Notes under the pieces: model-generated
The model's database searches: none
What the model saw: only the letters and a program-made list of their open reading frames with translations
What the model was told of the DNA's origin: nothing
NCBI GenBank assembly: GCA_905147135.1
Contig: LR990048.1
Span: 2,898,563-2,962,562 of the forward strand
DNA length: 64,000 nt
DNA from: Blastobasis lacticolella
Taxonomy: Eukaryota > Arthropoda > Insecta > Lepidoptera > Blastobasidae
Direction of reading: 5' to 3'
Made by a program: the position numbers and the translations under genes
Part shown: positions 3,801 to 39,306 of the stretch, piece after piece
Position numbering within the stretch: the stretch's first letter is position 1
Layout: the number at the start of each line of letters is the position of its first letter

Positions 3801-6800
3801 CCAGTGACCTATTGTCTACTTCGCTCAAACCGTCACACATATTCCGATCATCTCGTCAGGCATTATTATGGTCCTACCTAACGACTCTCGAGTCAAAGGA
3901 GAGACTATTATTTAATTTTTTTTTACTTCGCATGTGTAAGTTGTGTGCCTAGAATGAGGGACGCTAACGACTCGGACCAGGAAAACGGAACATGGGTCAA
4001 AATCGTACCAGAATTCGGCGGCAAACCTAGGCGTAGACTTAGTTAGAGCGCCTAGACCATCGAAGACCAAGTCGGGATTCGTGCCGGACTCATTATCTTA
4101 TTGTCTAGCTAGAGTGTATTCGATGTCACATCCGAAACTGTGTCCCAGGTTAGTTTTATAGTTTTTTATTCAGTGTGGGTGAGTACTGATGATATTTAAT
4201 TTGGTAATCTTTTCCTCGAAAATTTGTGTTTTTTATCACCTTTCACACTTGCATTGAAATCTCTAAGAGCCTAATCAATACTCTTAACTACCATAAAAGT
4301 AATGAGAATGTAACTTACGCTTTCGAAACTTAGAAACAAAGACAAATGTAAAACAAACCAAATCACTGACACTACGGAGATAAAGAAATAGATAGAGAAC
4401 GAAAGAAGCGAACAAAGCTGAAAAATAACACAAAATAATAAAGCCCAAATAAATTTAACAAACTACACGCGAGTTGTAAAGAATTTTTCGAGAAAATTCG
4501 GAAAAGCCTGGGGTTTCTTAGTTACTTAAATGGATACGATGATGTTCACGCGACGCGACCTAGGGGCTGACTGTCTCGTTCCTACTACCCTGGCCACATA
4601 TTTTAAATTAACAAAAATTAAATATTTCTAATTTTATGAGGTCTAAGCGACTGCTCTTATAACGTCCGCACATCCATAAATTTTACAAAATGTTACTGAT
4701 AAACCGAAAATAGTTAAATGTTACAACAGCTAGGGATGTATTACATACGTTTTATTTATTTACCGAGTCGATTAAATTTAAACAACGCAAACAAAAATAC
4801 TTAAGCAAATGGATTCTCTAATTTTCAATAGGGATCACTTGATATCTTATCTTAATAGGGTTGCTTTGGGTCATATTAACGAGGTTGGAATAATAGGGGT
4901 GATTGGGCCCACAACCATCTCAGGGGTCCAAGCCAATCTCACATTGTGCTCATGATCTCCCCGTGATACTGACAGACGGAGGCAATGGGCCTTATTTTTG
5001 AAACCGCTCGCACCGCTCGAGTAGTAAAGAGATAGGTAGCACACGCGAGCGCTCGCATGGATGCGAGCAGTTTCAAAAATAGGACCCTAGAGCCTCTTTG
5101 ATAAATCAGCGTTTTATCGGGTTGTGCATTTCCGGTGATAGTCGTCGTATGTAAAAAGCCAAAACACCGTATTAAATTTGACAAGCCAGTTCTAAAACAA
5201 AACCCGACACGGCTAGGGCATCCCGCCATCGGTGTCGCGTAGGAGGATCTCCAATGTGTTTCTTCTTAAACATACCTTGTATTTTTAAAGTGCCACAATC
5301 GCGATATGCTGAAAATGTATGGCGCTAAAGTATTTTCACTTGTAATTGTAGTGTTCATTAGTCAATTGTTAAAATTGACGACTCCGCCGTTAATGCCATG
5401 CGAATAAATAAAAAATAAGTAAATTGCGCATAAGTGAAAGGGGCGCTTCGACTTCTTCGACCGTTTCTTTTTAATAAGCGATTCGGACTTAGCGTTGTCT
5501 TATTCTATAACTAAACAAGAACAGTCCTTTAGTCATAAAGGAGAACATTACCAAACCATAACATGACTAAAACATAATATGACTTAAACAGACTATAATT
5601 AGGACAAAACAAGAACATGACCAAGTATAGAACAAGGCTAAAGCCGAACATGACAACCATCTAATAACCCGCGGAAACGTCGTGATATATATCGAACGGG
5701 TTTAGTATGCTCGCAGCCGGTAGCATTGTGCGCTTGGCGCTTACGCTACTCGGCAAGACTCTAAGTAGGCCTGAGGCGGGCCACATAAAAAGATGTAAAC
5801 CGTAGACACGTCGCAGAGATGACGTTGCAAAACGAAAGATGGAGCACGGGCGCGGGGAGCCGGGTCTCGCACGCAGCGCTTGCTCTCCTTATTCTGCCTG
5901 CGTCCTTTACTGGTTCTAATAGAGGAAGCGCGACGCTGCCGCGTCCGAGCCCCGTCTTTTCTATGTTTTATCAAGTCGCGTCGGCGCTCTTTTTTTGTCT
6001 TAAGTCTTATCTGTCTGGCTGTGGTTGACAGAGGCGTGTTGAGTATTAGCCGTGTGGTGTCCGGCAGAGTAGAATAGCACCAACCCCTTACAGTCGGGGG
6101 TGTCGTACAAGGCGACTAATGTTATCGATACAAAATATCTAGTCTCCGGAGGCTGGTAACACTGCGATCCACAACCCGCCAGCCAAGCGTGGAGATTATG
6201 GCAAAAACCTCCCCTTTCGTAAGAGAGGCCCTAAGTCCTGCAGTGGACTGTTATGGGCTGTGATGATGTTGTGTTGCGCGTGTCCCCAGCGGCGCGACGT
6301 GGTCCTCTCGCTGCTCGTCGGCGGCGTCGGTGCGCGGGAAGCGCTCGCCGCAGCTGGCCGTGCGGCTGCTGCGCGGGAAGCGGCTGAAGCGCGCCGCGCG
6401 CCGCGCGCCCCCCGCGCCGCCCCCGCGCCAGGGCGACCGCGTCGTCGTCGAGACGCTGCACACCGCCAGCCGCGCCAACGTCGTCTGGCAGGTACCGTAC
6501 CCCCGCCCCCGCCCCCGCCCCCCGCGCCGTCCCCGCGCCAGGGCGACCGCGTCGTCGTCGAGACGCTGCACACCGCCAGCCGCGCCAACGTCGTCTGGCA
6601 GGTACCGTACCCCCGCCCCCGCCCCCGCCCCCCGCGCCGTCCCCGCGCCAGGGCGACCGCGTCGTCGTCGAGACGCTGCACACCGCCAGCCGCGCCAACG
6701 TCGTCTGGCAGGTACCGTACCCCCGCCCCCGCCCCCGCCCCCCGCGCCGTCCCCGCGCCAGGGCGACCGCGTCGTCGTCGAGACGCTGCACACCGCCAGC

Positions 6801-9800
6801 CGCGCCAACGTCGTCTGGCAGGTACCGTACCCCCGCCCCCGCCCCCGCCCCCCGCGCCGCCCCCGCGCCAGGGCGACCGCGTCGTCGTCGAGACGCTGCA
6901 CACCGCCAGCCGCGCCAACGTCGTCTGGCAGGTACCGTACCCCCGCCCCCGCCCCCGCCCCCCGCGCCGCCCCCGCGCCAAGGCGACCGCGTCGTCGTCG
7001 AGACGCTGCACACCGCCAGCCGCGCCAACGTCGTCTGGCAGGTACCGTACAAGCACGAGCACATTATCGCGATGACGGAACTGGCTGCATTGCCGCTACG
7101 TTACGCACGAGGGCCCGGGGTCCGCCTTGACCATGATCCAGGATTTGGCAGATCAAATAATTACAGCGGAGCGACTGCCATCTGACCTCCATGATTTTGC
7201 TACCAGGGGAATTACACATTCAGTCGCCTGAAGGTTCATCACGATATTTTCGCTCATCGAAAGAGCATCCGTAGTATTCAACTTAATGTACATAACTCGG
7301 AAAAGAGTCAGTCGCACATGGTTGCAGCGTGATTCGAACCCAGCACCTTTGGTTAGTAGTCGGATACACTAACCGCTCGGCTGCCGACGCTCGATGTTCA
7401 TGTCTATTTATATGGATATAAGATTGCTTAAGTTGGTTGTTATAATGGTAATTAGACGTGAAGATCACTTACTTGTTTCCATGAACAACCTTTTACTGAC
7501 TAACTCGTAAAGCTTGCCAAACCCACACATTGTACTTAAAACCTGAGTCTTTTAAAAATAAAAATGGTAATTTGACCGTTCTGCGCAGGACGGCACGATC
7601 GAGATGGGCATCCCGTCCACGCAGCTGTACCCGATCCACCACCTGGACGGGCAGGAGTGCTTCCCGGGGGACTTCGTCGTCAGCGGCGCCGCCAACGTGG
7701 AGGAGAACCAGCAGGTTGGGCACCTTATTGTTTTAGGACTTCAATTTTAGGGTGGTAGACTACTGCTTTGACCGCCTGGACCTCCACAGCCCGGTACTGT
7801 GTCTGATGTCTTGAACACAGCGGCCGGCAATTTCTTTTGAAAATACATTGCTGTCGAGTTTTATTGATATTGTATTACTTTGTTTTGCATTTCGAATTAT
7901 TTAGAATTGAACTGTATTACTTGAAATTGAATTTGAATTGGGTTGTACTAATTGTATGTATTTACTTTTTTTTATTTACTTGAAAACAGGGCGGTCGAAA
8001 TTACTAGCACTTTTAAGTAAAGCATGATACAAACCTTGGTTCGCAATGAGTGCACTAGTGCTACCACGCTATAATGGGCTCGACTTTAGCATAGCTACGC
8101 TCTCGATTTTCATGTTTGATTAGCATTGCAGCCCTTGGTGTCTTGGCTGCGGCCTCGAGCAGGCTGCACCGCGGCCAGCAATGCCCCGCTACTAAGAAAG
8201 ATAGGACACAGTGTTGATTCTGTATAAGTACCTACCAGCACTAAACATTTCAATGTACTAGAATGTTATAGTCAAATTGTGAAATTTATCTGTGGTGTCA
8301 CGTAAATGGCTGATGGAAATTATGCTATTGTACTTATCTTATTGTTGTAAGCTGTGAGACATCCAAATACAATAAAATAAAATAAAATAAACAAATATCG
8401 AGGTATCCCGTTCGAATGAAGGCACCCTCTTTTGTGCTCACCAGTTGGCACCACAAACGAGTTGGGTCTTGTCACTGTCAAAATAACGCCGTTTTATTGG
8501 CTGTAATCCATTTGTCAACTTTGTGCGTTTGATTCTGGCCAATAGCGCAGCGTATTTTGACAACGGACCTTACTCGTCAGTAGCTCCATCTAGTGGAGTA
8601 AGATGAAATACCGCTGCCAAACAATACTATTTCAAATAGGTATTGTATTAACGTCTCCAGTGCTTCGTGCGGTGGGTATTTGGGGAACCGTGGCTTTCCT
8701 TATGGAGAGACTTTTGACTTGTTGATCATGCCATAGCTACATGTTATAGAGGTGGGCAACGCATTAGCAATACCTCTGGGGCCTAATTCTCGCGCTTCGA
8801 TCTCGAATTCGACATTTTTCTACCCACATATCTCTATTAATAATGTCTCTATTTCAATGTCAGAAATGTCTATTGCAACCAAAAATATTTTTTCAACTAT
8901 CTTCGACAGTCGTATATCGTCGAAGATAAATATCAGTGACGTTTTAATACAGTTTTTTGGCTAGAGAAACTGTCAAATTTGACATGTCACTGCGCGAGAA
9001 TCGCACTCCTCGTGTTGCTCAAGTCCATAGGCAGTGGTGGCCACTTTCCATCAGGTAGCCCGATTGCCTGTTTGTCGACCGTGCGACAAAAAAAAACGCA
9101 GTCATAACAGACCAAGGCATTACTATAATATAATATAATTGTCCCCCAGCTGAAGCACCGCGAGTACGGCGTAGTTCAGCGCGTGGACCACCACGGGCGC
9201 ACGGCCATCGTGCACTGGTATCGGACCTACACCAGCGCCGACGAGCCCGTGTGAGTACACACACATAGACACTCCATACACACACGAACAGATATCATCA
9301 CCACCAGGATTATTGGCTATCTCAGTGGACAACTGAATTTCATATATAATAATCTTACAGTACTCTAATTTAATAGACGCTAAAGCCAATGGCCAACGAT
9401 GAGAGTAGATGACGTAGTGTAGAATTATTTAATGTCAAATTCAATTATCTAACACTTTGTGTTGTCACTTCATGATGGAACTCCATTATTATGAATTAAA
9501 TCAGACCTACATATAGCTTGTAAACAAAATATAAAATAATTGTTTGAAGATGAGTAATTCGAAACCGGTTGCAATTTAATAAATTTGTATGATAAAGTGG
9601 AACTAGTGTACAAAAAGTGATTTAATGTCAAATTCATTTGCCTATAGAGTTAGACAATAGCCCCGCAGCAAAGCCAAGTTTGCCGCAACGTAGCTCGCGC
9701 CGCGAAAGAGCCTTTGTTTCCTTCTATCAATATTAAGATGGAAGAGATAACAGTATCTATGGCGCGCCTGTTCACGCTTGTTGTGTGCTAAAACACACTT

Positions 9801-12800
9801 GTGCTAGATGTACAGTGATCGGAATCAGGGGGCTAACTTTATCAAAACTATGGATATGCCCTTGAACTTATGTTACCGGTACCAGTTCGGTTTTCAATTT
9901 TCTTTTATGTTTCTTTTTCCAAAGTAAATGGGAATACAAGCACACAAAGATTGATTAAAAACTGGAACCGGTACCGGTAAGTAAAGATTTCAATTAAAAC
10001 TCAGTTGACGAATGAATCTCGTTTTAAGTTGGGTTCTAGGATAACACCACGACTCAAAACCAGTTTTAAAACTAGATTCATCACTGAGTGAGGTTGTGTA
10101 AACACGGGCTTTAGATTAAATACTGAGATAGGAATAGTAAACTTCATAATAGAACTGTACATCTCTACAACAAGGCTGTGTGGTGTCCGGCAGGGTAGAA
10201 TAGCACCAACCCCTTACACTCCTGGGTGTCGTACTAACATTCCCATGACGAATCGGTCTCTCAGTGCCTCTTCAACGTTCTTGAAATTGCACTGCGCCGT
10301 GAGACCACGAATCCTCGCGGCCCAATCTGCATAGGACTCCCCTGGATTTTGTATCGCGGAGTAAAAGGTATAACGCTCGCCGAATCCACAGGTAGACGGT
10401 GTGAAATGTTTATCTAAAATGATCAGTACATCTTCATAGGGTACTTCCTCTAGCCGTTTGGGCAGTGCTAAGTCTGAAGCTAGCCTGTATGTACTGTCAC
10501 TGAGTGCACTTAAGAGTATTGCTCTTCGTTTGATACCAACAGGGTCCTTCACTACGTCGATGTCATTAGCAATGAACCACTGATTTAGCCGATTTTTATA
10601 AGTCTGCCACGTTTGTACATTATGGTCAAAATTAGTTAAAATCCCGAAAAGAGACATTTTAAATATAAAAAAAATACAAAATGTGGGTATCGCGATTTAT
10701 CGTCGCCAATATTGTGTAGGCGAGTGAAACGACCACTGGTTAACAGCACACTGTTTATTTGCTAGGTAGGTAGGATACATCGTATGTAGATATTAGAAGT
10801 AGGTACGCATATACAACAGAAACTAATATTCTCGAGGCAAAACTTCCATACTCCATAGACTGTAAAATGGGCAGCAGCATTGTCCATTGTTATATTTACA
10901 ATATTGCGATCTCCAACCCGCCTCCCAAACATTGCGATTATAGCAATAACCTTCCCTTTCTTGGAAGTCGAAGAACACATACATATACACAAACACACAT
11001 ACAGAGTGAGACCTATGTAATTTAAAGCTTTTTCTTTCCTATTTTGTCATTAGGGTTATCATACTGTTAGATGTTTGATATTCAAAATTTTAAACCGCAG
11101 TTTTGTTATTGGCATTGCAATTTTGAATTGTACAATTATAACTGAATTTTATTGCTGTAAAACTGTATGGAAATAAATAAAAGTCACCTTTCATGAGGGA
11201 GCCCCTACATCATGCAGTGGGCTGTTATGGGTTGTGATGAGGATGATGATTACCCGCATCCCCAGCCCCGGGTTCCTGCACGAGAGCGAGATGAGCGTGT
11301 ACGACCTGAAGGACCACCCGGACTTCCAGTACCGGCCGGGCACCGTCGTCATCCGGGTCGCCAACTTCGCCGGCGAGGACGCCAACTGCACCGCTGGACA
11401 GGTAACTGAATGCCCAAGCCCGGGTGACCGGGTGAGTGGCTTTTTTCTTCGTACCGCTAAAGTGAAGCTTGCGGTCTGCCTGGTGGTAAGCAGTTACCGT
11501 AGCCAGACGGTTGCAATGCTCACATGTTGCCGATTCCTTTTTACCCCCCCTTTTTTTAGCATGCAGCAGTTGAGAATGAATCGGCACGTTTTTTGTCATG
11601 TTACTTGATTAAAAAATTTTAAATATTACGATTTCATTTATTTTCTTGTACTGAAAGCTAATTTAAGCTCCTTAATGATAACCTGGTTTTTGACATATGC
11701 TTGCATTGTTGTGTTCCGATTTGAAGGATAAGGTAGCCAACGCAATTACGGACATGAGGCATTTCATCTTAGTCCTTACAGTGACAACGCACCAACAGTT
11801 TTGCATTTTTGTTACCTGCAACCTAAATGCATTAATCGTAGATGCTATGGGCGACAGTTACCGCTTACCATCAGGTGGTCGGCTCGTTTGTCTCTGCATA
11901 GAATAAAAAGGAAGACAAATGGTTCATGTGTTGATTGATTGATTAAACGCAGGTGATCGACAACTTCCCGTCAGGCCGCGTGAAGGTCTGGTGGGTGGAC
12001 GGACACACCAGCATGTGCTGGCCGCAGGACCTGTACAAGGTTAGTGCGATATTAGGTCATAGGGCTTACCATCAACTCTTATAGCAGGACCTAAACAGAA
12101 CTGCCTTGCTTAGAGCGAGACAAGCTTATGTGACAGGTATAGCGCTGTCAGTTCTCTTTAGGTCCTGCTATAAGAGCTCATGGTAAGCCCCCAGGGGCCT
12201 TTTAGGCCTTGTCCCCATGGCGGCTGTGGTACTAATTTAGTATACAAACATTTACCAGTACCGCGTAAAAATATTATTGCGGCGCTGTTGCTGAAATAAC
12301 GTGACATTTTATAATGGCGACAATTAGTTCCAGTTTTCGCCACCGGGTCTGATAAGTTTGTAGTACTATAAAACAAATGGACTTCAAACGTCAAAAAGTA
12401 CCATGAAGTTTATGGTAATATTTTTACGCGGTACTGTCCGCTGGCCGTTGGTCGGTCAATTCCTGTGGTTATTCGTATAGACGTAGACATAGATTTTATT
12501 TGGCAATTACTACAATTATATCAAACAAGTTACATACTAAATTATTTCTTATACGAAATTAGTACCACAGCCGCCAATATTTTTGCATATCATTACAATA
12601 AAACCAATGAAATTGTTTGTTATGCCAAAATCTACCAGATGGCGCTACTGAGCTGTGAGGTTTGGGGGTCTAAAAGGCCACATTAACCTTTCATATTATG
12701 ATTCTCAAACTTATCTGCAGCGTCGCTGTTGTTGACATTGCCATGACAATTTAAAATGGCGTCACTTAGTTCCAGTTTTGGCCACCGGATCAGATAAGTT

Positions 12801-15800: not shown

Positions 15801-18800
15801 AGTCAGACCGCATATTATGAAAGGTTTTGGTACGTAAAGTTCGTAGTTCGTAAAGCTGTATAGAATGTGAAACATTCACTTCGGACTTTACCGGTATTTC
15901 AATTTATTGTGGCTATATGTGCTTTGTATTATTGTACTATTTATATACAAAGTTTCATGCTTTTTGTATCACCGTTTCATGAAAACATAATGTTACCAAA
16001 AATCGCCGAAAAAAGCACGTTTCTTGTATAGGGACTTTCCTTAATTTTTAACTTACGTTTATTTAAATACTGTGTTTGCAACTGCTGCAAACAGTTTTCT
16101 TCTGTATCCTCTTGTTTTAATTGTTTCGATTTGTTTAGAAATGTATCTGCTGGATACGTTCCTAAACAAATTGCGACAAAATGTTGCAATAAGTTTCCAC
16201 TTGCGTAAATAAGTTTCGTTTTGTACTTGAAACATTTTTTAACTTTGCTTTTACTCCCACACCGAATGTATTTAAATGTTACAAATGTTTCCGAACACCG
16301 GTGTGGGAGCACCTTATACTGTGTATATATCAGTGGAACAATTATGTATCTATGCCTTTTTCGTTTGATGTTCTATTCGTTTTCGTTTCATTTGTAATTT
16401 ACGTTTCGATTTCGTTATCCATTCGCCGTGGAGTTGGTCAGTGGTATTGTCGATGGTTCCCATACTCAGAACAATTAACCAATAGAATCCCGGCTTAAAT
16501 AAGAACTTGGCACTAGCTATTTTACTCACATGACGTAAATTATTCCTGGTCTATGTGTGAATGAAACAATCGTTTCCCAATCCCATCAATTTCCCCCTTG
16601 TCAATAAATTGAACCTAACGGATGTAAATTAACTAACGGCCAGTTTCCCGTACGTTAATCTATTGTAACCATCATTTAAAATTCGCCATCCTTATCTATG
16701 GTGAGTTCTAGACAGAGACGGAAAGAGTTTTAATCGATGATTAACATGTACAAGCGTTTCAGAAACTGGAGGTAAGTGTCGCCAATTTGAAATGTCGTTT
16801 TGTTGTCAACAAAAGCTTGTGGCACACCCATACCCTCAATGTTTCGTTGTTAGTATATTTATGTCACAACTTGGTCGCGTCATAACAACCAGTGACAACC
16901 TACACAATAGGGATGATGACTGGGTAAACATTTTAAAATTCTAATTAGTCCGTCTCAGTTAGATTGTAAAAAAACATTAGATACGTATTTTTTCTTTATC
17001 AAATCAATAAAAAATTATGAAGACTTCTGAGTATATCAAGTTTCACCTTAGGCGTGACGTGACGCAACATTTCAGCTCACGGCGGCGTATCGACGTCATT
17101 TTTGTGATTATAGAAATTTATTTTCCAATAAAGAAATACAATTTCGCTTACATTGGTAAATATAGTTAACTTAATTTTTTGTATATGTAACGAAAGAAAA
17201 ATTACGTGTCCAATATTTTTTATAATCTATCTGACGGACTAAATAATATTTTTCAGACATTATCCCTATTAGTAGAGTAAGCTAATAATGCATCTCCTTC
17301 TAGCGCATTAGAAAGCCGTAAGGAAATGAAGGATAGACATATCTTCGCCTACTATTTTAGCCAGGTTCTATGGGTTAATTGTTCTGAGTTCCCATACGAA
17401 AGATAATAATACTACGGACTAACTCGTCAACTTATCAATGAGGGCTTTTGCGATGTCAAAAATCCATTGCAACGTACTGCTGTCAAAATAAATACGTTAT
17501 TGGCTCCATAAATGTCCATGAGATGTTTCTCGCTACTAGCACGGCATTGTTTTGATAGCGACTCTCGCGCAGTATTCTCCTCTGATCACGTGAAACAACA
17601 ATATTAGAAGTAAACCACCTATCTAATTGATAGATCAATATTTCTTTGTTACTTTTGACGACAAATTTCACCTTAGCTTAGCCGAGAACTTGATTATATG
17701 AAACAGCAATTAGTCCTCTAAAAATATCGCAGCAAAACCCCTCACCCCCACGAACGAGTAACGATATCGAAACGTCCGAACACACGTCAGAAGTCACAAC
17801 GAAAACAGAGGTACATAATTGCACCGCAGCCGTAGTTTGGGGCACGAGTTGCCTTGGAAGACTGATCGATGCCGTGCTCCCACCAGTGGCCCCCGCCACG
17901 GAGGACCCCGCGGCCGCGGCGGGCCCCGGCGAGGTCGTCGCGGCCCCGACGACCCCGGCGGCCCCGGCGACCCCGGCGACCCCGGTGACCCCGACGGCTG
18001 GGGCGGCGAGTGGCGTGCCGAGGCTGTTGGAGCCGCGCGTGGCGGCGCACATTGAACGAGGTCGCGTGGCGATGCGCCGCCTGGAGGAGATGTTCGCGAA
18101 GCATCCCACGCTGCAGAGTCAGGAGGTCGGCCTTTGTTTTAACTTGTAGTAATATAAGAGGCTTCGTAATGAGCGATTTTTTGTACTGCAATCTTTCAGG
18201 GTAGTGGGTGTTCATGGACTTAATGAACCGTCTGGACATTACGGTTAATGACCGACCGTGATCTAGGTCTCAGTCTCTGCTACTCTCGGCTAAAAGTCTA
18301 GCCGATACCTGTGTCTCAGTTCTCGGCTAAACCGCCCGAAATTACTGCCAAGGCCGAGATTGTCTGATGACGTAGGTCCAGACCACATAAACCCCGAAAT
18401 GTCGATATCGACCATACTTCGATGTGAAAATATACAAAAAATTACTTTTGATACTTGTGTTTAGGTCTCTATAAATGCTGCTGCTAAATATTCTTGATCA
18501 AGGTTTCAATACTTTTCCCATTTAAAAACGCAGTCTCGGTCGGTCCTTAATTCCAGTTATGTCTTATAATTAAAGTGCCGGAAGGATATGTGGCTGAAAT
18601 ATTGTCATTACCAAGGAGATTACCCCTATGTATATGTCAAAATTATATATGATCAAACGAACTTCGCGAAGTTCGATCGATATTATATGAGTCGCTTCAT
18701 TCGAAGATATAAGATAATTCACAACGTAGTCCCTTTAGCCTACAAGGTAGCTTCGCACGTTTATTTAAAGTAAAATCGATTTTTTCAATCGATCATTTTT

Positions 18801-21800: not shown

Positions 21801-24800
21801 TCGAGTCTATAAAATAAAGATCGCAAGAGTATGCGGCGGGCGTCACTCAGATATTTGACAGCGATGAATATGGTATTCTCCTCGTTGGAGTACGTGTTGC
21901 GGCGCGGATGACCGCAACGAAGACGCCGAGTTGCTGCCGCGCCGTCGCCGCTTTCTTGTCGCGGCCGCGGGCGCTCTCGGTTATCGAGCCTAAACTTTAT
22001 TATTACGAAATTTTATTTTTGAGCCTGGGGTAACTTTATGTTTTCCGGCACTAAATAACTCTTAAGGATCTTTTCCTTGTAAGGGAGTCACAATAGACTC
22101 ATATTGTTATGTATTTTGTTCCCGTGCTCGGGTTCGTTGTGGATATTGGCTTCGAGGACCCGCACCAGCTGTGGGCCTAACTGTGCGCGGGCGCATCGGA
22201 CGGCTCCGACGAAGGCTCTTTCGCTACTCTAGCGGCGACGGCGACCTGGGGCAGGTCTGTTGACGCCTCAGTAGCAAGTAATACCTCTCAGTAATTGCAT
22301 TCGGAGGTGTGCCGATGTCTAAAACCGCAGACAAATTCATATTATGTCCGTTTTAGAACAAACGAATTTACGAACGAGTGGTCGATTACACCCCTACTTT
22401 ACTAGTAGGTACTTAATGCCCCACTGTTTAAAGTGTTATTCTCATCGTTCATCGAGTGTTCATAATATATTAAGGTGTTTGTATTGATCCCCGATCAACT
22501 AAAAACCATTCCGAAGTTAAAACCACGGATATGTGAAGAATGTGGGTATATCCACAAAATAAATCCGCACTGCCGATTCTCGATCGACGGTGGCGGGTAG
22601 GTAGATGTCATAGACCTCTAAATGATTCTTGATCATCAGCAGGTTGAGACATTTGGGATTATTGCACATTGCCTTCGTGATGGTTCACGACCAACCTCCA
22701 GGCTCTGTGTCGATACCGTCGTGTTGGTTCTCGACCAACATCCAGGTGAATATGCACATTGCCTTCGTGATGGTTCACGACCAACCTCCGGGCTTTGTGT
22801 CGATACCGTCGTGTTGGTTCTCGACCAACATCCAGGTGTATAATTTTACCGTCGCGTTGATTCTCGACCAACGTCCAGGTTTTTACCATCGTGTTGACGA
22901 CTCACGGCCAACCCCCAGGTTTTACATTGAAACACTCGATGCATAAATTACACGTATCACATTAAGCGAAAATCGCGTAAAATAGAAACTTACTTAGTTT
23001 TAATCGGAATCTAAAGTATCTAAAAACCTCGATCATCACCAGGTTGAAAAACTAGATTATTGCATATTGCCTTTGTGATGATTCACGACCAACCCCCAGG
23101 CGGTGTATGCGTAGTTATTTGATATCGTCGTGTTGATTCTCGACCAACCTCCAGATGAAATTTTAATTATATTCTTCATTTTTATTGTATATACATTAAA
23201 GCTAAATCACCGTCGTGTTGACTCACGGCCAACCCCCCGGTTTTGTATTAATACACTCAATGCATAAATTATAAAAGTAACTACATTCGGCGAAAATATT
23301 GTAGGTACTTACATGAATTTTTATCGGAATCTGAAGTGGAATCCGAGAATATCGCCACTTTGTGACATCGTAGGGTTTTTGCTTTTTCTTTTAAAATACC
23401 GAATATTGTTTTCGGCGCTGCGTTTCTACTTTTGAAATAAAATTTTAACAATTTGTTGTGCACCACGTGTGCACGATGTGCTTGCTACCTCGCACGAAAA
23501 AGGAATGACGTAAAAATGGCGGCTGGCTGTATCGATACGTAAGATCGAAAAAAAATGATCGATTGAAAAAATCGATTTTACTTTAAATAAACGTGCGAAG
23601 CTACCTTGTAGGCTAAAGGGACTACGTTGTGAATTATCTTATATCTGAAGAATGAAGCGACGAAATATAATTGCTTACGGCAAACTTTAAGTCGAGTAGA
23701 AAAGGGCGTACTAAGCACAACACTACAGTGATAAGAAAAAATGGCTGACAATGGTTGCAGTAAAATATTGCTCGTTGTTACAGAGTTTAAGTCTTACGAC
23801 AATTTTTACAGTCATTTGGTGATTTTATTTATTTATTCGACTAATATTGTCGACAGATAATGCGCAAGCTACTAAACCTGTACAAAGATTGTCGGTTCTT
23901 GGATCGTTTGATGGGAACGTCGTTCTTCCACGAAGACCACTTTCTGGTAAGTCTTTGTTTTAATTTTTAACATGAACATTATAGACGCGACAGTTGGTCC
24001 GGTTTAAGGAATATGTAACTAGGAATTTTAATAAATTTGTACTAATCAACAGATTTTGGTTACCGTCACATAAACAAAGTCACAACAACAAATTCATGAC
24101 ATCTAGCCACAACTAACAAGAGTTTTACAAAACTAGGTACATCGTATTCATCGTATTCATTCGTACATACAGGTCGCCCTGATCCCTAAATTAAGTAAAC
24201 TTGTATCTAAGGGATCAGTGATCCACCGAACGCAGACAAAATGACAAAAAGACAAAATGACAGTGGACTGTTCCATACCCAGGGCCTATTGGAGCGCGTC
24301 CGCGAACGAGGCGCCAGCACGCCGCGGGCCGGCGAGAGGCGCGTACAGGAACAGCTGGCCCGACTGTTCGCGCCCCAGCCCGACGACGGGGGGCCCCCCA
24401 CGCCGGGGTCCCCGGGGGGCCTGGACGACCCCATGGCGGACATTCCGCTCGCCATCGGCGGCCAGGTGCCGATAGTGGCGGCCAATGTCACCGTCGAGCC
24501 TATGGAGGTTAGTAGGTTCTAGAGACTCTGGTCATCTTTCTACGATGTTTTGGTTATTTGAAAGACGCTTGCGGGAGATACTAGCCCGTCTGTAAACACC
24601 CCAACGACGACCCCATGGACATGCCGTTCGCCATCGGCGGCCAGGTGCCGATAGTGGCGGCTAATGTCACCGTCGAGCCTATGGAGGTGAGTATGTTCTA
24701 AGGGCCAACTAACTATGATGTTATGGTTATTTAAAAGGCGCTTGCGAGAGCAAGTGGCCTGTCTGTAAGCACCGAAACCCGATGTTAGGGCGTCGCTCAC

Positions 24801-27800
24801 GCCGGGGTCACCGAGGGGCATGGTTGACCCCAATGATAGATATGGCTGTAGCGATCGGCAGGCAAGTGTCGATAGTGGCTGCTAACGTCACCGTCGAGCC
24901 TATGGAGGTGAGTAGGTTCTAGACGTTTACTCTGGTTATCTAACTATGATGGTAGGGTTATTTGAAAGAGTCTTGCAAGAGGTATCTAATGATGAAGCGA
25001 TGCTCACGCTAGGTTCTCCGGGGGGCATGGACGACCCCATCGATATGCCGCTCGCGATACTTGTCTGTAAATGGAAAAATAAAATTGAATGTGACAACAA
25101 CAACAATAACGACCGTGAGCGAAATGTTAGTTCCTTTTTACGCCACATTCGTTTGCAATATGGCGCTTACGATGAAATAATAACGGCGAGGCATTCATTT
25201 TTATTTTTTCTGCCTTCAACTGGTCATTGTGAACTTAGCTTTCTAATTTGTTGCGATCCGATTGGTCAAGGGGCTAGGCTACAACGATACTATTTTCTTA
25301 TCACAAATGAAGTATAAATTATTTTATCTACACTCATAGCGTAATGTTCCAATTACATATTCAAAAACAGTCGTTTAAGGATACACTTTTTTTACGTGCG
25401 TCTATAAAATTTTAAAAAATTACTTTTCGATATAGCATTTTCTTAATACACTTTAATTTTTTAATTTTTTGTCGAGCAACGGGACACGGCGAAATATAGG
25501 CTGAATACCTAGATGTCTTTAACAAATTCAAAATTTAAATTTTTCTGTTTAAATTTCTGTGTAATTATTTTCCCGCCAAACAGATTTTTTTTTTGTAATT
25601 GTTGTAATTTGTGTTTGTGAATGTTTTTTCTTATTTTAAGCAAATAAATAGATAAATGTGAAAGTAGTAAAGTGAATTTCCCGCCGCTTGAACTGAATCG
25701 CAGCTTACTTCCAGCAAAGTTGAGAAAATTATAGGTACAATATTTTAACATAAAAATATGAGTGTAAATAAAGTAGTGTATGCAACTGCATATAATTAGG
25801 TATTAAAACACTAGTGTCAAACTATTATAAAACTGGGCTACGCCTCGTATGATAAACAGACACTCATGATTTAATACCCCCTTTTATATGACAGTTACAT
25901 AAACTACTATTATATTCTTCTATCGATACGTACATTATTTGATTTTTGGTTTATGTTTACATGACATTGCTGTGCTGGGACATCTAATCCAACCCCTTAC
26001 ACTCGTGGGTGTCGTGCAAGGTGACTAATGTTTTCGAGGAAAAAGATCTAGAGTCTCCGTAGTCTGGAAAATGGGCAGCAGCGTTTTCCATTGTATTATT
26101 TAAACACTGCGATCTCGAGCCGCATTTAAGAGAATCATAGTTGATATCGAACAAAAACGGATGTGCCTCCGGAAATCTTAAAGAATAATATAATTATTTA
26201 ACACCAAACTGTTATATCCACCAGGTTGAATGCTGTCCGTCGAAGAAGGATTTGCATCTCAACTTCGAGCCCGTGCAACCCTCGGGCTCGGACTTCACCG
26301 TCATAAAGGAAAGCGCTATTAGTGAACATCGTAAGTGGTTATTCGACATATAACTCACAGTGACAGCGCGCTTGCGGCTCTGCATTTTTAATACACGAAA
26401 CCTGGTCTCTGCTTACCCCTGCGGGAAAAGGCGTGACGTCATGTATGTGAACCTACCTAAGTCCATAAATAAATCGTTAATGTTATGCCAGATTTACATT
26501 GGTCAAGGACAGTTGAGAGTATAAGTACAGTGGCGAGGGCGAACTTGCAAACCAATTTAACTCACTACAGTCCGATCGGTTTACACTACTGACCTGGGGC
26601 CCTACTTTTGAAACCGCTCGCATCCTAGCGAGGGCTCGCGTGCGCTATCTTTTTCCTATCCAGGGTAAGTTGCTAGAGATAGAAAATACAAGCATTAGAA
26701 GTCGAGCGCTGGGGTGCGAGCGGTTTCAAAAATAGGGCCCCAGGTCATCGATCCACCTAGTGGGAGGCCTATCCATGCTATGTCTTGAAATGTCAAGATT
26801 AGTACAAAATTTTACCTACCCACTCTAAATTAGTATGCTATTGGCAGGTCACAGAGGACTCATTTACTAAAACTGTAACAACTGCATAACCTGTGTACTA
26901 CAAATAAATAAATGATTAATTGATTGAGTACCCTATCATTGCAGTATCGATGGACGGCGCGTGCTCCCTGGGCCTATCCGAGGGCGGCGCGAACGCGGGC
27001 GCACGCAACGTCTGCTACAAGCTCTGCTCGCTCATACACCAGCAACTCGTCAAGGCACACGCCGAAGTCAGCCGGTACGGGGACGGGGCCCGGGCGTGGC
27101 ACGGACGCGTATATACACGCAGATGTTAATGATGACACCCACCAACATATACGATAAATAAAATTACAGACGAATAAACATACACTCACAGAACAATCAA
27201 TAATACACACCCACTAACATGATAAATTTACTCACAGGTCAATAACACACACCCACAGACAGTACGGACGAGCCGACGGACGGATACGGGCACACAGAGA
27301 TTAATGATACACACCCACAAACACATATATTTCATTAATCACAGGCCAATATATAACACACACCTACAGACCAATAACGCACACCCACAGTGAGTACGGA
27401 CGAACCGACGGACGGATTCGTGCACGCCATAGACGCATACATACACACAGAGATTAATTATACACACCCACCAACATATTATTATTAGGTATTTATTTTA
27501 TACATACATACGATACATATGCTTACAATCGAATAAACACACACATACAGACCACTAACGCACACCCACAGACAGTACGGACGAACCGACGGACGGTTGC
27601 GTGCACGTCATGGACGCATTCATACACACAGAGATTAATGATACACACCCACCAACATATACGATACATATGCTTACAATCTAATAAACACACATATAGA
27701 CCACTAACGCACACCCACAGACAGTACGGACGAACCGACGGACGGTTGCGTGCATGTCATGGACGCATTCATACACACAGATTATTAATACACACCCACC

Positions 27801-30800
27801 GACCAGAATTAACACACCAATAACGCACATCCACAGACATATCAGTAAGCTTATTACGTAACGCTGTGGCCAACAATGATCTGATTTCTATTATTGAAAT
27901 TGTAACTTTTGCGTTTCAGTATCATCGATTTCATGGGTTCAATTGCTAACAAAGTTCCATTGCAATAAAATGAAACTATGAAATCGATCATACGTAATCA
28001 CAAAAGTAACGATTTCAATAATTGAAATCAGAGGGTAGTCGGTAACAGAATTGCGTAATTGACCTACAGGTACGTTTCAACCGAAAAAGACAAGACAATT
28101 GAGCGGTACAACGATAACACTGAATGTGGTGTAAAAAGGAACTTACATTCCGCCAATAGGAAAACTCCGCTGAACGAAACAACTGACGCACCCCTCACGG
28201 TCACTGTGTGCACCGTTATCCGTGTCGTGCACAATTGTTTTTTCTTTTTCTTTTAGAACACTTTAGTTTAAATTCACTCATAGACATGTCGCTGGAAGAT
28301 TGTGAACATCGTTAGTTTATAATCTATATACTAACGGTCCTAGTAGAGTTATAGAAGGTTTAAGCTTGCTAAACTACGGTTCTTGAAACACATTATTCAT
28401 AAACGCATATTAGTGTTAAAACGATCAATAACGGCTTCGTAACTTATAGAAGACTGATCCGTTCTATAAACCTCTGATAAGCCTGTGTTAGTCACAAACA
28501 TGGCCGCCGTCACACGAATTGCTAATTTTATTCTCTTCTGATTGGCTCGTGACTCCATTCTTGACTTTTATCCTGAAGAGGATAGACAAAGGGGATTCAT
28601 CCATACAGCCATGACTTCTATCATTTTCCTTGAAACTCCGTTTTAGTTGCACATTGAACTTTTTTGAGACTTGGCAACAAGCGGTTTTATGTTTTTGGCT
28701 ATAAATTCATCAGAGTGACAACATGATGACGCCAATATGTATTTTATCAGACATTTAGTTAATAATTGGTCAAAAATAGAGGTTTATGGAACGGTTATAA
28801 ATAATGAATTTTAATGTACGTTTTAAAGGCCTAATGAGTGTTTAGCTAATGAACGTTTTAAACCTATTTTATGGTACTTTTATGAATAAGACCGTAAGAT
28901 TATATACTATCGAAAGATTGAACTGCAATTAAAATTTCCGAAGCATTTACAATTACAAAGAGACACATAAGTAGTATTATGTTAGTTTAAGTTAGATTAG
29001 CTTAGTGTCGTGATATAGTCACTCAGCCCAGTGACGAATGGTAGATAGTATTTATAAACCGTTCATAAACTAACATTGATTATAAATAAGGTTTTTGCAA
29101 TCTTCCGGTGACAGTAACATTGCGTTGGCTGGTATGCGGTTGGCATGAGGTTGACAGGTAGTTTGACTCTGAAGGGAACACTAATCTACCACATAGACAA
29201 TGCTAAAATAGAGAATACGCGAAAATACATGGACATCTAGGGTAGGGTAGGAGTAAAGGTAGAGTAGGGTAGGGTAGGTGTGGTGTAGGCACAAAATAGA
29301 GAACTAACAGAAGGTCCGCTCACGTCGTCGAAAATTATGACGTAAACTGGCCGACTCGCTACGGTTGCTACTGTATTTGTCTGAATTTTAAAAAGAATAT
29401 TCTAAAGATCAAATAGAATTTTACAGATCGTTCACAACAACTTGTTCCTTGCAAATTCCCAATGCCTAACTCTTGCCGTAATGTGATCATAATCGCTTCC
29501 CAAGCTGTTGTTATCAGAATGTTTATCAAAGCTTCAGACATTATACCCCAGTAAGCGTAAAAGTAATTACTTATTTATTTACTTTTCTAAATTCATTGTC
29601 ATCTGATTACATCATCAGATCCTGAGAATAATTTTTCACTGACCTGGGAATAGAGTTTCAAGAGTACTCATTAATATATATACAACTAGTCCAAAACACG
29701 ATAGAGTTGCATAGTTGTATTGAATGGATTCTGTGGCCACATTTCATCTCCATCATCACATCAGCTCTCTGACAGCATAATATAATATCATCTGATTTAC
29801 CTACATGCGTACAATTCAATCGAATATCGTAGTAGAGTAAATAGAGTAGTGGGTCAAATACTGTGTACATGATGGGTAACTAAAGATTGCTATGATTCCA
29901 ACTGCCTTGTTAAAATATGACGTACACAGTATTTGAATCACTTCCCGGTAATAAAACGAATTGAAATTTTTCACACTCATGTGAATTAGATGGAAATGCA
30001 ATATTATGGTATCAGTCAGTTGATCTGAAGATGGAGCCGGAAGGTGGCCACAGAAACCATTCAGGTGGCCATTACGGTAATTTTTTGTCTTGTTAAAAAC
30101 GTCACGGTGAGCCAATCTGCTCTCGTGACTGTTCAACCAGCCTCAGGGTCCCTAGCGGAAGACTTTGGTCAACCTTGCTTTGCCATCGGTATTAGGAGGC
30201 ACAGCAGTGAGCTGCTGAAAGTCCGAAATGGTCACCAATCATGGTTCTTGGACGCGTGCATTGCTTGTACTTTATTAAGTAATATTAGTTACGTACAGGT
30301 AATTTTATTTATTCAATAATAATGTCCAATAAATATTCAATTTACGTCTACAACACGAACGGCCACGCTAGCGCTCGCTGTTCAGGCCTACTTTTTTAGG
30401 TCGTATACTTCAGGGTAAGCAGGTTAAAATGATGAAGAGTAGACTGTAGTTTTAAATGAATTTAATGCGTTGAGCAAAGAATTACAAAGGTAATGAGAGG
30501 CTGCTGAAACTCGTGAAAGGTAGGTGAATACGTTTAAATATTTGGATAAATTAACAATAGGGTTAAGCAACGTTAGTTACAATTTACAGCCATAGTTTGT
30601 ATACAGAAATTATTAATATAAATTAATAGTTTTACTAAATCTGAACACTCGCGACTTAGCTCTGCTTGAAACTACTTGAGAATGCCTGTAAACGTATCGT
30701 CAATGTGTGCGTGACGGAAATGGCGCTTTGTTTCCAGTGGACCTTCTTCTTGGGGAGAGCCGTTTTTTATTTTGTGATAACACAAGAACGAAGTTGCGGC

Positions 30801-33800
30801 GGGCAGCTAGACACGCAATAACGAATTGGATGGTTTTTTGCAAATGTATGACTTGAAACCACTTCCTGTAATGCTTGGTAGCTGCAGACCATTTCGAATA
30901 GTGCCCGGCATACTACTTCTGACAATTGCCAACCGCAACGTAGCTAACGCATAGCAGACCAAGGCCCAGTAAGATCAAAAACGACTGCTTTACAAAATGA
31001 AATAATGCTATAATGTTTTAAACTATCACCGTTATTATCACACATTTTAAAGGTATATTCAGAGTTAGGTTAACCCGGAACGTACCTTTAAAATGTGAAA
31101 TAATGCTTCTACCACTTCGCAAAGGACATGTCTTATTGATCAACTTAGTGTAAATTATATTTGAAGTACGCAATTTCACCGATACTTTATGAGAGGGCGT
31201 TGACTGAGACGTAAATAAATCAACTTGTTGTTTTCCACAGGAGAAGGCCTCAAGAACTGGCCGAATTCCTAAACAGCATAATGAAAAAACGTATCGAAAC
31301 TGAGGAGAAGTTACCCTACCACTTTACAGTGTGAGCCTATATTTTATTTTACCCTCATTTATTCTTGTTTCTTTGCATTTCTTTCCATGGAATTCTGTAC
31401 GGACATTTCAGTTACAGGCATCGAGATTGCACTTGCTTTTTGCCACTTTCTTCTATTCTACTATAATGTTATAGATGTTGATCTTATAATGTATGCCCTT
31501 TGTGTACACTACCATCAGCTTATAATGCAATTGTATTCCACCGTTTATGTCGTATGATACTACAGAATTCCATTGCACCGTTTATTTAGTATAATTTGCC
31601 ATCATTCCTATTACATACTGTTGGTGTATCATACTCCCAGTGCCTTGCATTATGATTGGGTTTGGATTTGTGCATATGATATGTAGCTAATGTATTGATG
31701 TACATGTTTGGTATGTTGTGGTGACATTGAATGGTTACTGTATATTTTTTTAGGTATATGTTGCCCCTTTTTAAAGTGCGTGACTTTAAAGGTGTAATAA
31801 GCAAATGAAAAGACTTGAATTACCTGCTAAAGATTTTGTTATAGGGGCGCCTGTCGTCATATCTGTTCTTTACATTGCATCAGATGGAGGAGTATAAGAA
31901 CGCAAAAAAATATATAGTCATTTTCAGTAGTTTATCTCGTCCTTAATAATAAATAATTAATATGTTTGGACACATTCCTTTAATTTGTGCACTTTATCAA
32001 AGGTCAGCTGTACAACAGAATGTGGGATTGTGTGTTTTTATGTTGTGTTTGTCTTTGACACAAAGCGGTCTGTGACTGCGTACATTAGTTACGTGAGAAG
32101 TATTTTGTTGTCACTTCTATTGCCACTTTGGTGAGATATTTATTGTACTAAATTTATTCATTTAGTTCTCCGGTTCACTGTTAAATGAGAATATTATAAA
32201 GCTTGTAAGTTCTTACTCCAGTTATCGTCATCAACCTAGCGGTCAATCCCGGCTTCTGCCTAGGTCCACTTCCCTGCTCTTTCTTCTCCACTTCGCCCGA
32301 AATGCTCACGCAGGCGTAGGTTGTTGGCTCTCACATCAGATTCCGCAGGACCTCTTTCCTGAAACCGGCTGGTTTAAGCAACTCATTCCCACGGCCCAAA
32401 TTAAGAAAGGGCTGTGGAAACATTCAAAGATTATGCAAATGTCGTTATTAATTATTAGAGAAATATTACCGTTATATTTTAACCTCTAGGTTTGTAACAA
32501 ACACGTGAGAATTTTGTTTGTATGCACTTTAATTTATACCGTGGCGAGCGTTGGTCGGCCACCTGCCGTCATTGTAATTTGTCGCTGTTATCCTGTCCTG
32601 CCCTGATAATTCTCTCTCACTTTTTCCACATTCATTCACCTTTTTATACACGAACGTCGGTTGAGGGTACTCCTGATCTGATCTTACTTTAAAATACTGG
32701 ATGGCGCAAAAGCACTAGCTCTATAGAAATTACTAATACTTTTTTAATGACATTATTAGTCATTCTGATATTGAAAATTATGTCGTAAACAAATGTAAAA
32801 TAAGCCAAAAATAAATATGGACTGTTGCACTCCCCATAAACTTGGAATACACTATGGATTTAGTGAGGGACACTTTTCCAGGCCGTGTTCATCACCCGTT
32901 TTGGTAATTTGCCTTGGCCTGCAAGATCACCCGAGCTGACCTGTCTAGACTTCTCTCTTTGGGGTTATTTAAAATCTCTGGTGTATGTGAACACCACACC
33001 ACAGACTCTCAGAAAACATATCGCCTGAAGCGTTGCGACAAGCTATGGAAAATTACATAAACAGGACTCAAATGTGCATCAACTCTGGAGGCCACTATTT
33101 ATGACACATCATCTTCAAATCCTTATGGGACGAAATTTCATGGTCCAGGTTTATTATTTATTTTAACAGTTTATTGTGCACAGGAAATACATAGCGAATA
33201 ACAGGCAAAGGTACCTATAGAAAAGAAGTTAAGTAGTGCCTTTACTTGAGCGCCATCCTGTATAATCGATTTGATCGTGATACGTACGTCTTCCACTTCC
33301 CACTGTTCCACCACTCCTGCCATAATAAATAATCCTTCACCTCCTTTCATTCATCCTCTACAATCCCAAACCAGCTAAATATTGTTGTCTCTATCCTAGG
33401 TAATACATATTCCTGTCCATGGGTAAAACAGCTTGTTTAACACCGTAACATTCAACGTTCGCCCCTGTATTGCAAATAAATACGTGTTTCCTTTAGGTGT
33501 AATAATGTTTCAGATCCTTACCATATGCAATCTGAATTTTAAATTCTTCCCTGCAAACGATAATCTAATGTAAATTCTCCCGTTCTATTCCAATAGTTCA
33601 AGCTGACATGAAAGAGTTTAGGGGCTATCCCTCATTCGCCCTTGATGATGACGATCTCTTGGAGTCTCCCTAACTTGACCTCACGTAATTAATGTATAAC
33701 CTCCTTATTGCAACACTTTTGAAACCGTAAAATATGGGTAAAATAACCGTAGTCTGATTACACTTTTTGGGGTCAGTCACTTTCATTCACATTTTCGTCG

Positions 33801-36800: not shown

Positions 36801-39270
36801 CAACAATTTCTATCGATATTTGAATTTTTTAAAACGAATCCTTATTTTTTTGAAATGCTGTATGTTTAGATCACATGTCCTGTCACATGGGCACACAGAA
36901 TTGGTCATCCAATGCTCTGTCTAAGTTAGGATGATTATTTTGACAGCTCACTAATTCTTGGTTCTTGGCTATGAAGTGTTGTATTTTGGTTAAATTGTTT
37001 TAGTGAAGTGCCACGCTTAATAAACAACACTAGACTATCGAAAAAAAATTTTTGTATAACATAGAGCATACCCATGCAACTATCGATTCCAAGTTCTATG
37101 AGAATGTTAATCGAATATATTCATTAACGATTTTACACCATATGCGAGCTTTCAAAATTATCATCCTAAATTTGAGCAAAGTATACCTATCGGCCACGTA
37201 CCGAGCTAAAACTAAACCGTCCATATGGTCCCCCCTTCCCCCCCCAGGTATGGGTCCGCGGCTACGAGGACCGCATCGACCTGCTGTCGGTGATGATCGC
37301 GGGCCCCACGCGGACCCCGTACGAGGGCGGGCTGTTCGTGTTCGACGTCCAGCTGGGCGGCGAGTACCCGCGGGCGCCGCCGCTCTGCCACTACCACTCG
37401 TACTGCTCCGACCGGCTCAACCCCAACCTGTACGAGGACGGGAAGGTCAGTACCCGCCGCGCCCCCGCTCTGCCACTACCACTCGTCCTGCTCCGACCGG
37501 CTCAACCCCAACCTGTACGAGGACGGGAAGGTCAGTACCCGCCGCGCCCCCGCTCTGCCACTACCACTCGTCCTGCTCCGACCGGCTCAACCCCAACCTG
37601 TACGAGGACGGGAAGGTCAGTACCCGCCGCGCCCCCGCTCTGCCACTACCACTCGTCCTGCTCCGACCGGCTCAACCCCAACCTGTACGAGGACGGGAAG
37701 GTCAGTACCCGCCGCGCCCCCGCTCTGCCACTACCACTCGTCCTGCTCCGACCGGCTCAACCCCAACCTGTACGAGGACGGGAAGGTCAGTACCCGCCGC
37801 GCCCCCGCTCTGCCACTACCACTCGTCCTGCTCCGACCGGCTCAACCCCAACCTGTACGAGGACGGGAAGGTCAGTACCCGCCGCGCCCCCGCTCTGCCA
37901 CTACCACTCGTCCTGCTCCGACCGGCTCAACCCCAACCTGTACGAGGACGGGAAGGTCAGTACCCGCCGCGCCCCCGCTCTGCCACTACCACTCGTCCTG
38001 CTCCGACCGGCTCAACCCCAACCTGTACGAGGACGGGAAGGTCAGTACCCGCCGCGCCCCCGCTCTGCCACTACCACTCGTCCTGCTCCGACCGGCTCAA
38101 CCCCAACCTGTACGAGGACGGGAAGGTCAGTACCCGCCGCGCCCCCGCTCTGCCACTACCACTCGTCCTGCTCCGACCGGCTCAACCCCAACCTGTACGA
38201 GGACGGGAAGGTCAGTACCCGCCGCGCCCCCGCTCTGCCACTACCACTCGTCCTGCTCCGACCGGCTCAACCCCAACCTGTACGAGGACGGGAAGGTCAG
38301 TGCGGTGTTTGTTTTCCAGGATTCAGTGCCTGGGACGTGAGAAAGCGAAAGGAGATCACAGATGTAAGAAGCTACGCGAGTAAGGTGTTCACCATCATTA
38401 TTGGCCTATATTAGTCCACTACTGTACATGAGCCTTCCCTACAGAAAAGCTATGTCCACGGCTCGCTGCATCCAGGCTGCAGCCTACACTACGCTTGTCA
38501 AATCGCATTCTCCACTCGACTAAAACTAAGTATATTAAACGTTGAAATCGTATTCGCGTGCCACATCTATTTTGACTCTTCTACAGAAAAAAATAATTTA
38601 CGTTCAGGCTAATAAGTGATTGGTTCGTATTTAAAATATGGAATGGTGGTCCTTTTACTCCCCTCACCCATGGCAGCAGCATTTTTTTCTTGGGGCCTGC
38701 GCTAGAAATACTTGCAATGTCCTAAGGAATAAATGTAGTGAAGTTTATTGCTCTATAAAAAATGTTAAGGTTCTGTGTGGGAACGATCGAATACATCCTC
38801 TACTATGTAGGTATTATCTCAGAGAGATCTGGTACTGTAACGTGTACTAAGAACGGGTTCAGAGCCAAAGAACCTGGCGCACGGTTTATCAATCTTATCG
38901 GTATTAGATATATTACATATTGCTAATAGAAGAGATAGATAAGTAGATATACTCTTTATTGAACATAAAATTACAAAAAAAATATATTTAACAGCTTTTC
39001 AAACATTATGGGCAAGAGTTTTTTTTTGTATGGCAGACAAACAGGCAAGCGGGCCACCTGCTGGAAAGTGGTCAGTGTCCATAGGCGGCGGTGACCACTG
39101 GTCACCGCCGCCTATGGACATCAGCAACACTAGGGAAGTCACCAATGCGTTGCCCGCTTCTGAAGAGACCTCTAATATACCTCTTGAACGATCCCATGTC
39201 ACAGTCCAAAGGAAACACTGTGGCTGGGAGCTCATTCCACATCCGAATCGTACGAGCGAGAAACTTATTT

Positions 39271-39306
<36 letters not shown>

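Follow-up and report, generated by a model that had tools for sequence, protein, structure and literature searches.

The DNA analysed here is a stretch of 64,000 nucleotides of the lepidopteran Blastobasis lacticolella (assembly GCA_905147135.1, contig LR990048.1, positions 2,898,563 to 2,962,562 of the forward strand; called the window below) that carries 18 exons of the gene UBE2O. Three UBE2O introns contain tandem arrays (arrays 1, 2 and 4) whose repeat unit extends from the interior of the preceding exon across the splice donor into the intron. The same anatomy recurs at exon edges of other genes of this genome, predicted proteins of relatives contain exon ends repeated in frame, and in array 4 the exon alone keeps a conserved residue. 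We consider it probable that the arrays arose by exon-edge stuttering, that is by tandem duplication over an exon border and subsequent expansion of the array, and that they are tolerated by splicing at the outermost site. The evidence comes from one assembly and from protein predictions of other species.

UBE2O and its exon-end arrays

The 18 UBE2O exons with their 17 donors were placed by tblastn with six lepidopteran UBE2O proteins and by reading-frame phase, and give a single open frame of 942 amino acids with the Pfam domains SH3-B, SH3-C and UQ_con. Its C-terminal region is similar to solved chains of the E3-independent E2 (best E=1.5e-82), and identity to lepidopteran homologs amounts to 60-70% over 99-100% of an 872-amino-acid draft. 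In a FastTree tree of 40 homologs the sequence groups, tentatively, among butterflies and apart from Helicoverpa and Tuta. The exons and arrays in question are the following (window positions; a slash marks the exon border).

6290..6491, plus strand: second UBE2O exon in the window, ends ...VVWQ/gtaccg; source of array 1.
6406-7050, plus strand: array 1; 110-bp unit, 5.9 copies, made of the terminal 86 nt of the exon, the donor and 24 intronic nt that include a (CCCCCG)n stretch.
24283..24507, plus strand: tenth UBE2O exon in the window, donor GAG/GTTAGT; source of array 2.
24337-25058, plus strand: array 2; decayed units of about 182-217 bp, made of the exon, two donor-bearing copies and one truncated copy.
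26945..27074, plus strand: twelfth UBE2O exon in the window, donor CCG/GTACGG, backed by phase with the exon at 31241-31330.
27091..27803, plus strand: array 3; intronic units of about 130-190 bp, about five copies, beginning about 16-25 nt past the donor.
37248..37445, plus strand: 16th UBE2O exon in the window, UBC domain; ends GK/, directly before the VCVSLLGTW exon.
37363-38301, plus strand: array 4; 85-bp unit, 11 copies (the exon and ten identical copies), made of the exon end and the donor AAG/GTCAGT.
39319-39469 and 40315-40646, plus strand: last two UBE2O exons, with VCVSLLGTW and the stop.

Each of the five intronic repeats of array 1 reproduces 86 nt of the second exon's 3' end at 98.8-100% identity, and a few variants tell the copies apart. 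A non-exhaustive search of the 577-Mb genome (45 contigs) found only three short matches to array 1 elsewhere, of 38-62 bp and 92-100% guanine plus cytosine (GC). The copies of array 2 lie at offsets of 182, 399 and 606; its donors number three with the exon's own, namely GAG/GTTAGT followed by GAG/GTGAGT twice, and the fourth copy is truncated. Array 4 is the most regular: its ten intronic copies are identical to each other and the exon differs from them. At one position the exon encodes a tyrosine; 53 of the 54 best homologs share the tyrosine or have histidine there (HYHSYC or HYHSHC type), the segment being absent from the remaining one, and the intronic copies read HYHSSC, with serine at this position. 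A tyrosine in the exon only, next to identical serine copies, is consistent with selection on the exon and with a second copy that diverged and was amplified later.

The original prediction had described four arrays that copy an exon end or its donor and that differ in unit size and age. The difference is borne out by the near-perfect 110- and 85-bp units and the decayed array 2. The copying holds for the exons ending at 6491, 24507 and 37445; for the exon ending at 27074 no exon copy was detected. It had also pointed out that the genuine exon forms the upstream edge of each array, which is true for the donor-containing arrays. This says nothing about mechanism, as any tandem duplication with a donor in its unit will have the intact exon on its upstream side (and one with an acceptor, on its downstream side), so that the arrangement is forced by logic.

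An exon-against-intron screen of UBE2O, modelled on that of Hron et al. (matches of at least 20 nt, fifty shuffles as control), gave 26 matches in total. Nineteen are donor-side and come from three of the 17 introns: intron 2 (five), intron 10 (four) and intron 16 (ten). All 19 fall in the intron directly downstream of their source exon, and 17 of them end exactly at the exon border (5 of 5 in intron 2, 10 of 10 in intron 16, 2 of 4 in intron 10). They score 30-170 bits. The two shuffle runs peaked at 24.3 and 34.2 bits; 18 donor-side matches exceed both values and one (30.2 bits) stays under the higher, and 17 of the 19 exceed the cut-off of 42.1 bits used by Hron et al. The other seven matches are weak (at most 24.3 bits) and pair exon 7 with array 1 in intron 2.

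Three of the nine tandem loci of the window begin inside an exon and cross its donor, against a mean of 0.30 by random placement (P=0.002), a value that does not describe an independent sample since the window was chosen for its exon-end arrays. Mere overlap of tandem loci with exons is ordinary (P=0.30). The earlier observation that TMEM104 has no such array is in agreement with the position of both tandem loci past 56 kb, which lie outside its four recognised exons (minus strand; partial annotation).

Exon-edge arrays in other genes of the genome

A sample of 40 loci (20 with 10 kb and 20 with 2.4 kb, 248 kb in total) covers 48 of 137 protein-kinase matches and contains 25 local repeat loci, among them five donor-side cases and one acceptor-side case. 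These six are a minimum, as 13 of the 25 repeat loci plus L017 were inspected in full and the others by their longest open frame and the initial 90 bases. Positions below are those given for the respective locus.

L025, 5708-6146: donor-side, 113-bp unit, four copies; three units are identical and the last has another intron tail; contig C5 ends about 0.13 Mb away.
L029: donor-side, 94-bp unit, two copies.
L021: three donors after a GC-rich, putatively coding open frame.
L017, 1702-2542: 42-bp units in which ...TTCAG/GTAAGAG is repeated after a coding-like exon; donors CAG/GTAAGA and CAG/GTAAGG.
L027: the following intron holds a copy of part of the exon that lacks the exon's donor.
L020, 6662-7072: acceptor-side, an acceptor and the start of a tyrosine-kinase-like exon (...tag/GTACAGCAACCAGG) present six times; the exon continues from the last copy only.

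Because the L020 exon continues only from the last copy, five similar acceptors upstream of it must be bypassed. Pfam assigns Pkinase to L025, L027 and L029 and PK_Tyr_Ser-Thr to L020. From sequence motifs we presume that the sampled kinase cases belong to Akt, DAPK/STK17, GSK3 and a receptor tyrosine kinase, with L025 being Akt-like and L017 RSK-like. More diverged copies are present in L017 near 2430-2530, adjoining another repeat. Eight repeat loci (L010, L011 at 7086, two in L014, two in L015, L012 and L019) were set aside as apparent long coding low-complexity sequence, simple repeats or pieces of dispersed elements, and L022 as a chance match of 23 bp.

The five donor-side cases outside UBE2O together with the acceptor array of L020 rule out that the phenomenon is confined to UBE2O or to donors. 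In the sample the ratio of donor-side to acceptor-side cases is 5 to 1 (two-sided binomial 0.22), and it rises to 8 to 1 if the three UBE2O arrays, i.e. the discovery set, are added (binomial 0.039). This excess is suggestive only.

UBE2O in other species

The original prediction had proposed to look for arrays at the same UBE2O exon ends in related species, and one such case was found among protein predictions. The junction of exons 2 and 3 is readable in 51 of the 54 best matches, 52 of the 54 being labelled as Lepidoptera, and a search for repeated 8-mers over the 120 listed proteins flagged eight. The predicted Helicoverpa armigera isoforms X2 and X3 (P0002 and P0001) carry the end of exon 2 (...RANVVWQ, 43 amino acids) repeated in frame; the H. 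armigera entries P0012 and P0041 have it unrepeated. Compared with array 1, the Helicoverpa unit reaches further back into exon 2 and includes about 15 nt of intron (five linker codons) instead of 24 nt; with these differing unit borders the two events look independent. In the Tuta absoluta prediction P0052, four repeats of the exon-8 end, each of 44 amino acids, are joined by linkers VSRALAA. With the codons deduced from the protein, this linker reads like a translated GTGAGC donor. Note that arrays which are fully skipped by splicing are invisible in gene predictions of this kind.

A further H. armigera prediction, P0042, has a 25-amino-acid in-frame triple repeat in its N-terminal half (residues of about 335-410) that P0001, P0002 and P0012 do not contain. 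The other flagged proteins (P0028, P0039, P0065 and P0098) have low-complexity, far-apart or short repeats.

Relation to known systems

Exon stuttering itself is known from chicken: Hron et al. (2026; PMC12954441) describe 236 affected introns in 115 genes; 190 of these introns lie on dot chromosomes, where they make up 3.4% of introns, and 46 elsewhere, and the copied exon parts measure 20-187 bp. The authors tie the phenomenon to GC-rich coding sequence and find the source at most one base from the exon border in more than 90%; the paper covers birds and mentions GC-rich gerbil genes as data not shown. Within open-licence PMC papers, a text search for the term finds Hron et al. alone, and none of the listed titles and abstract starts concerns exon stuttering in an insect. 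What is new here is the occurrence in an insect and the recurrence across species.

The present cases fit exon stuttering in the testable features except the chromosome location typical of chicken. As in the chicken cases, blocks of tens to hundreds of bp occur as exon copies in introns; the copies reach the exon border and carry the splice site (UBE2O introns 2, 10 and 16; array 3 and L027 fail in this respect), and either side of an exon can be involved (donor side in UBE2O, L017, L021, L025 and L029, acceptor side in L020). As to GC-rich coding sequence, the UBE2O source exons have GC contents of 0.80, 0.74 and 0.69, with 15 of the 18 UBE2O exons above 0.6, and the L029 match has 0.56. Unlike in chicken, where location on a dot chromosome is typical although not defining, our cases lie on contigs of 18-24 Mb and the window on one of 21 Mb. 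Arrays 1 and 4 and L025 are nearly perfect, in contrast to the imperfect chicken example, and the in-frame copies in predicted proteins of relatives, like the insect host itself, also set the present cases apart. That several genes on large contigs of a lepidopteran genome show this anatomy argues against a cause confined to the dot chromosomes of birds; whether GC-rich coding sequence is generally involved becomes testable with other lepidopteran assemblies. Moreover, the tandem, nearly identical donors (and the similar acceptors of L020) are natural experiments on how the spliceosome chooses among equal sites.

A variable number tandem repeat in intron 18 of human ABCA7 likewise starts from a splice donor. 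According to PMC5954066, the first donor is canonical, retention of one unit constitutes a minor isoform, the second donor leads to an out-of-frame isoform and expansion raises skipping of the next exon. The ABCA7 unit comprises 25 bp from the GT onwards, without exon sequence, and resembles array 3 most closely, in which significant similarity starts at 27091-27100 with the donor at 27075. For some Drosophila introns an origin by tandem exon duplication has been proposed (PMC2891723). Duplicated exonic sequence becomes intronic in that model as well as here; in that model, however, a new intron arises inside an exon, whereas here an intron holds the copies and each unit includes the start of that intron. 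Intron gain by tandem exon duplication has reportedly also been described in a study of potato (PMC4974935).

Proposed mechanism and alternatives

We assume that a short segment over an exon/intron border, mostly of GC-rich exons, would be duplicated in tandem, presumably by slippage or unequal exchange. The extra copies may then expand, contract and decay within the intron like a minisatellite, with selection probably acting as a filter. Splicing would use the outermost site, i.e. the upstream donor in donor-side arrays and the downstream acceptor in acceptor-side arrays; the arrays would be tolerated because all copies are in this way removed with the intron and a normal mRNA results. Since the downstream copies keep functional-looking donors, their use at a low level is expected. 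None of the unit lengths of 110, 85 and 113 bp is divisible by three, so that use of an inner donor would shift the frame for most unit counts and would keep it when the inserted length is a multiple of three.

Several observations weigh against this explanation. Array 3 is a genuine array (27100-27803), with first significant matches from 27091 and 27100, but the screen detected no exon copy of at least 20 nt in it. GTACGG occurs five times around it (spacings of 187, 132, 181 and 149) and MAFFT did not align the exon's own GTACGG with the others; inclusion of the donor in this unit is possible, judging from these motifs. L027, which copies no splice site, and L021, the open frame of which has no Pfam match, are less convincing than the other cases, and the matched exon of L029 has only 56% GC. 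The strand composition of array 2 is unlike that of the C-rich arrays 1 and 4, and G-quadruplex (G4) motifs were present in only one of the six arrays tested (array 1), for which reason they were rejected as a common cause. At the 48 matched exons, donor-side arrays number 2 against a mean of 1.06 by random placement (P=0.29), and acceptor-side arrays 0 against 1.05. Finally, the proximity rule of splice-site choice would favour the downstream-most of nearly identical donors.

The original prediction went further and suggested that duplication is anchored at the donor, perhaps by replication slippage or repair at GC-rich exon ends. A hotspot in which 5' splice sites or GC-rich exon ends direct tandem duplication, for instance by replication stalling or transcription-linked breaks, appears rather unlikely to us. 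It would account for the tandem loci of the window that start in an exon and cross its donor, for the overall donor excess of 8 to 1, and for the Helicoverpa case, in which the end of exon 2 is likewise duplicated, with unit borders that differ as judged from protein. The window had been picked for this very feature, however, the matched exons of the independent sample do not differ significantly from random placement, an acceptor-side array exists in L020, and a selection filter alone predicts that arrays survive at exon edges. A wider version, in which GC-rich exon edges of Lepidoptera are recurrent duplication hotspots, UBE2O exon 2 stuttered independently here and in Helicoverpa, and in-frame copies are spliced in as protein repeats and thereby provide a general animal route that seeds new isoforms, is a reading that we put forward tentatively and likewise consider rather unlikely.

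That the arrays function in donor choice or isoform production, by in-frame extensions, intron retention or tuning of expression, is improbable. The downstream donors are intact, H. armigera entries exist with and without the in-frame copy, and expansion of the ABCA7 array alters splicing (PMC5954066); on the other hand, the units of arrays 1 and 4 (110 and 85 bp) are out of frame, array 2 is decayed, and an extension from array 4 would place extra sequence in the UBC domain just before the VCVSLLGTW exon. False expansion of a single-copy exon end during assembly is more doubtful still: the ten identical copies of array 4 are what such an artefact would produce, but arrays 2 and 3, L017, L020, L021 and L029 are diverged, the copies of array 1 can be distinguished by variants and the pattern is found in protein predictions of other species. 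Birth of the introns by tandem duplication of an AGGT-containing exon segment, which would explain exon-derived sequence in introns and is proposed for some Drosophila introns (PMC2891723), is hardly credible here, because the introns are longer than their arrays, the units carry non-exonic sequence and the gene model needs no unit-sized intron.

Further features of the UBE2O introns

An intronic tandem repeat with units of 44/90 bp lies at 22663-22880, away from exon edges. GC-rich open blocks at 21486-22296, in the intron between the exons 17887-18125 and 23857-23946, are unmatched by the six UBE2O homologs. The minus-strand open frames at 10214-10696 and 20171-21300, also within UBE2O introns, are presumably fragments of retrotransposon gag and of reverse transcriptase/RNase H-like sequence, as judged by eye from motifs. 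A (ATG)13.7 repeat within 39271-39318 stops 7 nt before the VCVSLLGTW exon, at a place where one would expect a polypyrimidine tract.

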